From positions 1 through 64,000 of the forward strand of contig CANMSB010000003.1 in NCBI GenBank assembly GCA_947500445.1: a DNA stretch of 64,000 nt. The letters run 5' to 3'. This DNA comes from an uncultured Flavobacteriaceae bacterium (GTDB lineage Bacteria > Bacteroidota > Bacteroidia > Flavobacteriales > Flavobacteriaceae). A model generated the notes under the pieces. It made no database searches. It was not told the origin of the DNA and was given only the letters and a program-made list of their open reading frames with translations. Positions within the stretch are counted from its first letter, which is position 1. The number at the start of each line of letters is the position of its first letter. A program made the translations under genes and the position numbers. This document shows positions 3,876-45,922 of this stretch, piece after piece.

Positions 3876-4331
3876 ACCGTTCTCTACCATCGGATTACAA
3901 CGCTTACCCAGTACCGACCGACCACTTACCAACAGAACAAATCACCCGATTATCGGATTTTTACATTCCGATACATAAAGTAATACCAATTGTTGTTTAA
4001 AATGCACCTTATACCATTTTTGGTATGAGATAGCGAAGTTGCTTTTCATTTACTGGCGTGGTAAAGGTTTTGCATAGCATTAGCCAAGCCAAACGCTTAC
4101 AAGAAATGTAAATGGACAATGAACACGTTAGCTTGGCTCATTTTAAGTAGCAGTGGGTAGAACGCAAAAAAAGTAAGAAAAAACAACTAAAAAAAAGATA
4201 AAAAACGAAATAGCACAGGATTAGTCTGTAGTTCATCGATTAGTTATACTAATTTTTTTGAATTTCAGTTAAACCTATTGTTATGGGATAATGGACGCCC
4301 CCCCAAGTCCTTCTTAAACAGTCATCTACTT
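3876..4331. other. Long intergenic stretch with hairpins, no gene seen
   Basis: About 450 bases with no credible reading frame. ATACCATTTTTGGTAT (around 4010-4026) is a short palindrome sharing the AAATGGTAT core found in repeats elsewhere in the window. An imperfect stem-loop pairs AGCCAAGC at 4082-4089 with GCTTGGCT at 4131-4138, extended by a bulged AACG/CGTT pair. The right part (4160-4215) is very A-rich. No Bacteroidota promoter with both elements was found before the DUF1800 gene. A small RNA or the remains of a mobile element are both possible. Confidence 0.5.
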
Positions 4332-28601: not shown

Positions 28602-28791
28602 ACTACACTGGGAATTAAATTTTCGCTCCGACCCAAAATTAGAGAATTAATTTGAAACGAATAAGACCCTTGGCGTAGTGCTCATATGCCGATCAGCGGA
28701 TTTAACTGCTTTGGGTAGTCGAAATATAAGCGTTCACCATATCCTCTAACACGTCCAATGGGAGTGCCCCGTTTTTGAGAATGACCTCATG

Positions 28792-28839
28792 TTAACTTTG
28801 AAATGGTTGATCAGTGCTATTTCAAAGTTAAAATGGTAT
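28792..28839. repeat. Perfect 13-bp inverted repeat joined to a dispersed AAATGGTAT-type repeat
   Basis: TTAACTTTGAAAT (28792-28804) is an exact inverted copy of ATTTCAAAGTTAA (28819-28831), with a 14-base loop. The right arm runs on into AATGGTAT (to 28839), giving the same core as repeats at 33540, 33884, 45774 and 53664. It lies in the 250-base gap between lpxB and the C40 peptidase gene. That gap (28602-28851) shows no reading frame. Confidence 0.85.
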
Positions 28840-33467: not shown

Positions 33468-33485
33468 TTTTCCTATAACCGAATT

Positions 33486-33520
33486 AAAAATCCCCGGGAT
33501 GGCATATCTCGGGGATTTTT
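33486..33520. terminator. Bidirectional terminator
   Basis: AAAAATCCCCG (33486-33496) pairs with CGGGGATTTTT (33510-33520). The flanking A and T runs let it act on both strands. It follows the processing-protease gene and lies beyond the end of the broken msrA. Confidence 0.92.
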
Positions 33521-33539
33521 AGGTTTTGGGGGTCCCCTA

Positions 33540-33580
33540 ATACCATTTTTTAATGGGTGATTTCAAGGTAGAAATGGTAT
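33540..33580. repeat. 41-bp miniature copy of the ATACCATTT/AAATGGTAT element
   Basis: Bounded by ATACCATTT on the left and AAATGGTAT on the right. The right half (TAATGGGTGATTTCAAGGTAGAAATGGTAT in two pieces: TAATGGGTGA and TTTCAAGGTA, then GAAATGGTAT) is nearly identical to the right end of the element inside msrA. It sits 4 bases after the msrA stop codon. It looks like a copy from which the centre has been deleted, or the minimal unit of the family. Confidence 0.8.
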
Positions 33581-33584
33581 GATT

Positions 33585-34274
33585 TTAACCCTCTGGATGT
33601 TCGCGTTGGAACGCTTTCAGTTTAGGCCGGATAATCGTTTGGCAATAGGCCTGTTCCGGATTTTTCTCAAAATACTTCTGGTGATATGCTTCGGCCAAAT
33701 AGAAATTTTTCAGGGTAGCTATTTCCGTCATGATGGGCTTTTCGAAGTGCGGTCTTATACCATTTCTGCTTTGAAGTTACCCAAATAAAAAGCCGTCATT
33801 TTTTGCTTAGACGAAAAAGAAAAATCAAGCATAGCAGTAGCTACGGTTGTTTTTTATTTTGAAGTATAAACGGAAAAGGGCAATTTTTAATGGGTGATTT
33901 TAAGGTAGAAATGGTATTAACGTTTCGATCAGTGCAACTGCCGATTGCTGTTGTTGGTTGTTGTGAGTGTAGATTACAGAACGGTACTGGTTGCCTATGG
34001 AAACACCTTTGGTATGTGTTGTCGTTGGGTCGTGTACGGTCATAAAAAGGGTCAGCAATCGTTCGTACGAAATGAGCTCCGGGCAAAAAGTCACTTGTAC
34101 CACTTCGGCATGTCCAGTGCGGCCGGAACATACCTCCCTATAGGTGGGATATCCGGGTACGGACCCTCCACCATACCCCGATACGACCTGTTCAACACCT
34201 TTTACGATGGTAAAAAGTGCTTCGATACACCAAAAACAACCTCCGCCAAAGGTGGCTTTTTCAACTGTTTTCAA
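33585..34274 (-). pseudogene. msrA: msrA, methionine-S-sulfoxide reductase, split by an insertion
   Basis: The 5' part (34274 down to 33918) encodes the first 119 residues of MsrA, with the catalytic GCFWC at 13-17. After LIETL the frame enters an inserted element, adds five residues (IPFLP) and stops. The missing 3' part lies intact on the other side (33757 down to 33585), encoding 56 residues that include AEAYHQKYF and the C-terminal Cys in AYCQ. Removing 33758-33916 plus one TTA copy joins them exactly in frame as LIETLRPHFEKP, giving a 175-residue protein of normal MsrA length. The gene overlaps the end of msrB by 14 bp. The truncated product keeps the active Cys but loses a third of the fold, so it is probably inactive. 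Confidence 0.95.
33758..33916. mobile_element. 159-bp MITE-like inverted-repeat element inserted in msrA
   Basis: The ends are imperfect terminal inverted repeats starting TACCATTTCT. About 21 of the first 26 positions match, and all five differences are transitions. Left flank TTA (33755-33757) and right flank TTA (33917-33919) form a 3-bp target duplication. The inside is AT-rich and non-coding, so it would need a transposase supplied from elsewhere. Excision with one TTA restores msrA in frame. No known IS family can be named from 159 bp. Confidence 0.9.
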
Positions 34275-45574: not shown

Positions 45575-45922
45575 GTTAAAATAGAATTTAATGTGTTAGT
45601 GATGCACGTTAAACGGATTTATCGCGCATTTCGTATAATTTGTTTGTTTTTTTGAAAAAAGCAGCTAAAACCGCCTTTTTAAAAACATGGGGCACGCTAT
45701 ACGATAGCATCATGTTGCAACGTTTGTTAAGTGACGTGAGTTCAAATTGAAACATCCATTTTTTAGATACTGGCAATTTTTAATGGATAATTTCAAGATA
45801 GAAATGGTATGAAAGATAAAGAGCTGACCAACAGTGGTGATTTTGTAAAAAAAGGCTGTTTTTTATGTTGAACTAACGTTAAATAAAATGTCTATGGTTG
45901 GATGTTTTGTATTTTTGCTATT
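45575..45922. other. Intergenic stretch with a dispersed repeat copy
   Basis: About 350 bases with no reading frame of interest. It contains GCTATACGATAGC (a short palindrome near 45696) and one copy of the dispersed repeat at 45774-45810. A -7-like TATTTTTG lies at 45910-45917, five bases before the chosen start of the next gene, with no good -33 partner. Confidence 0.6.
45774..45810 (+). repeat. Solo end of the msrA-type element
   Basis: CAATTTTTAATGG, then ATAATTTCAAGATAG and AAATGGTAT closely match the right terminal repeat of the element in msrA (33882-33917). No matching left end is visible within 160 bases. Confidence 0.8.

Follow-up and report, generated by a model that had tools for sequence, protein, structure and literature searches.

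The window, that is, the whole stretch of 64,000 nucleotides analysed here, belongs to a draft genome of 5.18 Mb in 177 contigs, and in it the msrA gene is split by a 159-bp element (Table 1). The frame of the N-terminal part stops five codons after LIETL, inside the element, and the 56 C-terminal codons (33588–33755, with the stop codon at 33585–33587) lie intact on the far side. On these points direct reading agrees with the earlier note, which had described msrA as interrupted by a block with inverted ends and TTA at both borders. The block and one triplet together make 162 bp, so the frame is kept when they are removed, as had also been claimed. On the coding strand of msrA the duplicated triplet is TAA, which at the joint is shared between the Leu and Arg codons, and both halves match the Pfam PMSR profile, at positions 1–112 and 119–153 of 153, which nearly meet. 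The msrB gene (157 codons) is intact beside msrA. It had been proposed that the cell keeps msrB and loses this msrA; msrB is indeed kept and this msrA is split, but the loss is overstated, since the search for a second msrA found two more MsrA-like frames in the genome (C14:107930, 46%; C4:245754, 35%). A terminator-like inverted repeat (16-nt arms, 94%) is present at 33485–33521, 3' of an S41 protease gene.

Table 1. Features of the split msrA locus and of the hairpin family in the window
Feature	Position	Strand	Basis
16-bp remnant ATACCATTTTTGGTAT, outer ends joined	4011..4026	.	Direct reading
41-bp internal-deletion remnant, four bases after the msrA stop	33540..33580	+	Ends; weak match to model R2 (17.8 bits, E 0.54)
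msrA C-terminal 56 codons and stop, separated, intact	33585..33755	-	PF01625, E 4.5e-10
TTA target duplication, left copy	33755..33757	.	Direct reading; TNA rule in related copies
Hairpin element, 159 bp	33758..33916	+	Direct reading; copies; fold; plus strand scores and folds better
Hairpin tip AAGCATAGCNNTAGCTACGGTT, nearly constant, A-C and G-G mismatches conserved	33827..33848	+	Reading, alignment, folding
msrA N-terminal part, 124-codon open frame ending LIETL-IPFLP-stop within the element	33900..34274	-	PF01625, E 5e-42
TTA target duplication, right copy	33917..33919	.	Direct reading; single-residue spacing in MsrA of relatives
Remnant, right half only (L133)	45772..45810	+	Loci around single ends

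Then, has the block been inserted, or did msrA always contain it? MsrA relatives are present in 56 of 59 other genomes, and the loci of 29 of these 56, namely those that had been given loci, were read. In all 29 the N- and C-terminal halves are in a single open frame from which the block is absent, and the gap between the halves is one residue in 23 and three residues in six more distant ones; the single residue is the Leu codon at the joint. Because the halves of the relatives are in one frame, with one residue between them in 23 of 29, the block in msrA is an insertion with a 3-bp duplication. Ancestral msrA sequence, which the earlier note had named as the finding that would overturn its reading, or an assembly artefact is a negligible prospect in view of these 29 loci, and also because the 161-bp unit recurs at dozens of places with duplications of its own.

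The 161-bp unit used in the comparisons (33757–33917) consists of the element plus the inner A and T of the duplications. Its arms, 33757–33790 and 33884–33917, are 34 nt long and 76% complementary. In the element search 40 of 183 candidates were scored, and the genome has at least 39 more copies of nearly full length besides a split one. Here ATACCATTTCT occurs 116 times versus 7 for the reversed control. Therefore, the element in msrA is not a chance arrangement. The copies form two subfamilies of 21 and 18 full members, which differ from their consensuses by 2.5–16% and 1.2–10%, respectively, and both consensuses fold as one hairpin. Among the copies with both ends, the pattern is TN-ATACC...GGTAT-NA, with N equal on the two sides in 33 of 39. 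The outer T and A of the duplication (43/48 and 35/48) are less conserved here than the inner A and T (47/48 and 48/48). The split copy, at C17:84015–84337 (L006 and L080), has another copy nested within it, and positions 75–77 of this host copy are found on both sides of the guest copy, so a 3-bp duplication is seen within the family itself. Short length, terminal inverted repeats and the lack of a transposase gene are all found in the msrA element. Together with the same-genome copies, the 3-bp duplication and the uninterrupted gene of the relatives, they uphold the earlier view of a MITE-like, non-autonomous and mobile element. The proposed search for the element in the rest of the genome and in relatives was fruitful on both counts, and among nine genus-mates one has a weak match.

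A recent burst was found in Aquimarina sp. RZ0 (7.0 Mb), where a 25-base pattern with four free positions matches 591 ends, versus 0 in the control, and therefore about 290 copies are present. Twenty of 34 copies are identical, and 33 copies differ by 1.15 per 162 bp on average. All 34 copies have the outer T and A, and N is equal in 33 of them; in six contigs (788,723 bases) with 31 copies, partly the same as the 34, T and A stand outside all 31 and N is equal in 30. Therefore, the duplication is TNA, and with these fresh copies a 1-bp or 2-bp duplication, as suggested by the window's own genome, was set aside. The target-site duplication of a MITE is thus seen in both genomes. As for gene context, three of 35 RZ0 copies lie inside frames, and the 29 copies with a gene on both sides are located between convergent (16), co-directional (9) and divergent (4) genes. 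Some loci of RZ0 (L174 at about 3744, L248 at about 888) carry ATACCATTTCT-type ends, and more than one subfamily may live there. Draft contigs L278, L279, L281, L283, L284 and L286 are among those ending inside element copies, and the element seems to break the short-read assembly of this genome.

At E 0.001, at least 41 of 397 genomes of the same bacterial family have a match (the window's own genome included, with two candidates scored per genome). The match is nearly full-length, that is, at least 130 of 161 positions, in at least 19 of the 396 other genomes, and the remaining matches are shorter. Most of the homologues read measure 160–164 bp between the ends and fold as one long hairpin; it should be noted that the ends were sought within 10–14 bases of the expected place, so that the constant length is partly imposed. 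A first scan of genomes with an exact pattern gave zero matches. A scan of named genomes with the tip gave at least 113 stretches, 49 of them from RZ0; the other matches listed are mostly from Flavobacteriaceae, and also from Bacteroidales, Saprospiraceae, Flammeovirgaceae and Marinifilum. Outside those groups, the matches listed are one from Chlorobiota and two from gammaproteobacterial bins. Both gammaproteobacterial loci have a high GC content, and a core model whose training set did not contain them gives 35.0 and 30.4 bits (E 4e-4 and 0.004). It was the exact tip that retrieved them, however, and mis-binning is possible. The collections of phage, plasmid and viral contigs gave no match to the family. 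Two loci from different genera, L095 and L096, have the element at seemingly the same site with similar flanks, which hints at vertical inheritance of one insertion, and L198 (Flavobacteriales SZUA-72) contains a tandem repeat of TAGCTACGGTTAATAATTTT in the tip region.

The homologues were further compared as folded molecules, using 48 representatives; L109, which has no right end, was dropped beforehand, and 17 of the 48 were hand-picked from a list covering 80 of the at least 113 tip loci. Alignment A1 contains 38 of them (L091, L096, L098, L102, L104, L111, L112, L114, L209 and L213 are out), 23 of which had been found without the tip pattern. In A1 the consensus hairpin has 53 pairs, 39 of them with changes on both sides. 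The paired cells amount to 93.9%, versus 43–52% for slid partners, and the covariation is 0.494 versus 0.09–0.11; the structure was derived from the same sequences and beats its slid versions partly for that reason. The inner helices, which are separated by asymmetric loops, covary too, with double changes in 10 of 11 pairs of helix 3. Few parts of the hairpin are as constant as the tip, while the outer arms vary; the mismatches of the tip are kept, A-C in 32 and G-G in 35 of the 38 sequences. The tip-scan pattern fixes 20 bases, so the tip constancy in alignment A2 is imposed. Model R1 was built from 27 of 29 cores, L198 and L223 being left out for arm duplication or deletion.

The two strands are not equivalent. 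At the model's pairs, 183 G-T stand against 15 A-C, with G-T exceeding A-C in all 38 sequences, whereas the ratios in slid controls are 1.15 to 2.15; the program that chose the paired columns, from the same sequences, accepts G-U pairs and rejects A-C ones, and the counts are 184 and 47 when the A-C mismatch of the tip is included. Independently of the model, the AAGCATAGC strand folds better as RNA in 47 of 48 representatives (mean −50.0 versus −34.4 kcal/mol; the exception is L118) and in 38 of 39 own-genome copies, and DNA folding parameters agree on the better strand in 48 of 48. Model R2 gives the window element, which is in its training set, 153.6 bits on the plus strand and 72.4 on the minus strand. 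A cruciform or paired binding sites would be indifferent to strand. From these sequences, evolution seems to have preserved the folded shape of the family in addition to its ends, and one folded strand, probably as RNA, seems to be selected. An alternative source of the strand bias would be strand-asymmetric mutation. The earlier reading was right about a mobile element, but it missed how widely the family is spread, that its hairpin is conserved with a near-constant tip, and that the conservation is strand-specific.

MITEs are usually seen as little more than two ends. A plain MITE, in which the ends alone matter and the interior is a passive legacy of one old founder that spread between genera horizontally, would account for the ends, the duplication and the bursts, all standard MITE behaviour, and paired ends could covary simply because one enzyme binds both. 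It should, however, treat both strands alike, and for this reason selection seems to act on one folded strand, probably RNA. The double changes in the inner helices, a tip more constant than the outer arms, the 12-fold preponderance of G-T relative to A-C in the pairs of the model and the one-sided folding in 47 of 48 also speak against it, and we regard it as rather unlikely. The explanation that we prefer, with a probability of about 0.68, is a hairpin MITE with a conserved structured strand, moved in trans by a putative IS5/IS1031-like transposase. Such a transposase would recognise the paired ends and, on inserting the element at 5'-TNA-3', would duplicate 3 bp. The AAGCATAGC strand would be kept foldable as a single strand, and its transcripts would most likely form a structured RNA with a recognised tip. 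The copy in the window landed in msrA at codon 119 and broke the gene, and copies would later decay by deletions joining the foot of the hairpin, leaving remnants of 16–48 bp. Several points run against this explanation, among them that no partner transposase was found in the regions scanned, how the program chose the paired columns, and the closeness of hairpins to Y1 places in RZ0. In addition, L301, an IS5-family element of RZ0, has GAG ends, not ATAC ends, and the weaker conservation of the outer T and A in the window's genome is not what a plain 3-bp duplication predicts.

Because the duplication is a 3-bp TNA, as the RZ0 copies display, the putative enzyme would be a DDE transposase like those of IS5/IS1031. 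In the IS1031 subgroup of IS5, TNA duplication is the rule according to the available part of PMC12016507. The transposase, which the earlier note had placed elsewhere or thought extinct, is indeed not beside the element, and a partner with matching ends was not found in any region scanned. In the window's genome, the loci read around the ends (100 of the 116 ATACCATTTCT places were listed) gave hairpins, remnants and single ends. No transposase with matching ends was found at the five PF01609 loci of this genome or at the PF01609 places of eight other genomes. In RZ0, the scans covered up to about 1.2 Mb (partly overlapping) of the 7.0 Mb, and no transposase flanked by ATACC or ATACG ends came to light. 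Two long end pairs there were rejected as the autonomous element: one encloses a gene of TonB-receptor look, judged by translation, and the other a gene between two separate hairpins. The element L301 mentioned above spans 884 bp and contains an open frame of 279 codons; its ends are GAGTATGTTTAAAAATAA and its duplication is TAA. The GAGTATG of L301 differs from the ATACC of the window ends, in a comparison with this one element.

Other end types were observed in a few copies. The tip-bearing hairpins L200 and L242 have GAGC..GTTTA ends, which are similar to those of L301 and resemble the IS1031-type ends quoted in the available part of PMC12016507. The flanks are TAA on both sides in L200 and L220 and TTT/TTA in L242, and most of the few CTAG-type copies are without clear duplication outside CTAG. 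Consequently, judging from very few copies, the same core may travel with different ends. A bolder reading, which we consider unlikely, is a phylum-wide element with a constant hairpin core, a tip recognised on one strand and exchangeable ends belonging to different transposases (ATACC with TNA, GAGC with TAA as in IS1031, CTAG-flanked and TATAC, taken jointly), whose RNA would aid its own movement or tame its effect on the host.

Could the hairpin instead depend on a Y1 transposase, as REP/RAYT-type elements do? A long hairpin, strand polarity and a bias to Bacteroidetes would fit, and the consulted part of PMC6006769 describes a Bacteroidetes subclass of TnpA-REP with atypical flanking structures. 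In RZ0 a hairpin lies within 200 bp of six of 15 Y1 places, versus 4.2% of 24,000 random stretches (binomial tail 2e-5), and the tip is present in three of 30 Y1 loci from 18 genomes (L324, L331 and L337). However, for at least four of those six places what matches Y1 is a fragment that touches the hairpin or lies beside it, and the PF01609 places of RZ0 have a milder excess of hairpins (3/15, two of them in one gene). At the end of G426:C47 and the start of G426:C233 (L399 and L400), a Y1 transposase gene is seemingly cut by a hairpin, with its halves on two contigs; the two look like halves of one gene cut by one hairpin, which would fit landing in dispensable DNA. The five Y1 loci of the window's genome are without the hairpin and IS200-like where the motif is readable, and the tip occurs in none of eight loci taken as RAYT-like by weak score and length. 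A search at 27 loci, a set that excluded L324, L331 and L337 among others, likewise gave 0. Y1 enzymes are not known to duplicate their target, and from them one would not expect a duplication whose base varies; such a duplication is seen in the element copies, including those of RZ0. The nearness in RZ0 probably reflects hairpins landing in dispensable insertion sequences, as for RUP, for which such landing is described in the available passages of PMC2229807. This nearness slightly raised our estimate for a Y1 link, which is still quite improbable, and lowered that of the preferred explanation from 0.70 to the value given above and, by less, that of a plain MITE.

At the gathering score, no Rfam family matches the element or 17 loci of relatives, and another search gave chance-level matches only. 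Among the best-ranked literature matches, with most subscription journals outside reach, no description of the hairpin family was found, in accordance with the earlier statement that no family with these ends is described. ERIC, YPAL and Correia elements and IS5-derived MITEs come closest by description. In the available passages of PMC2229807, ERIC/IRU (127 bp) and YPAL/RU-2 (about 168 bp) of enterobacteria are likewise small palindromic dispersed MITE-like repeats, and mobility of ERIC and YPAL by transposases is hypothesised, not demonstrated. YPAL has nearly the length of the hairpin element and is proposed there to affect RNA stability but, unlike the hairpin element, is not A+T-rich and has internal repeats and varying duplications. 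The same passages on ERIC and YPAL mention no fixed TNA duplication, a feature of the hairpin element. The Correia/NEMIS repeat of Neisseria is also a MITE, and its transcripts are proposed to form stem-loops cut by RNase III (PMC2229807, passages available); by that account it differs from the hairpin element, nearly the whole of which is one strand-specific hairpin with conserved mismatches and tip. The exclusive 3-bp TNA duplication is shared with the IS1031 subgroup as described in the part of PMC12016507 available, whereas the ends of the window group are ATACC and no transposase is linked to it. REP/REPIN with TnpA-REP are also many-copy hairpins, recognised by structure, but the REPs, at 21–65 nt with a GTAG or GTGG foot in the part of PMC6006769 consulted, contrast with the about 160 nt and varying outside base of the hairpin element. 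The element is called here a palindromic MITE of a known kind, what is new being the conserved folded strand, tip included. That the middle and one strand appear to be conserved across genera suggests that a folded single strand serves the element or the host. The about 290 near-identical copies of RZ0 make movement and RNA directly testable, and the spread of bacterial palindromic repeats becomes an approachable question.

Finally, the copies decay in a recognisable way. Deletion products, including forms of 26–48 bp, are plentiful among 40 loci around single ends, and the window itself holds at least two family remnants (4011–4026 and 45772–45810) besides the 41-bp one. The latter, previously described as a mini-copy, is real, but its duplication is imperfect (flanks TAA and TGA) and it looks like an internal-deletion remnant. 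The 16-bp ATACCATTTCTGGTAT occurs as a remnant at eight places, and TN..NA has been retained outside it in seven of these. A ninth match (L083) belongs to a longer copy, of which it forms the left end. The insertion had also been called reversible, which does not agree with the losses seen: these are internal deletions that leave 16–48 bp and mostly keep the duplication, and no precise excision was seen among the deletion products at single-end loci. One subfamily carries the 4-base repeat TGGT at both of its feet, which is compatible with deletion across the hairpin, and the remnants may well have been made by such deletions across the foot. Two further places in the window have weak model matches: 3983–4160 matches the full hairpin model (17.7 bits, E 0.56) and contains the GCATAGCATTAGCC motif, and at 28784–28839 (18.4 bits, E 0.42) a small hairpin is followed by AATGGTATTA.
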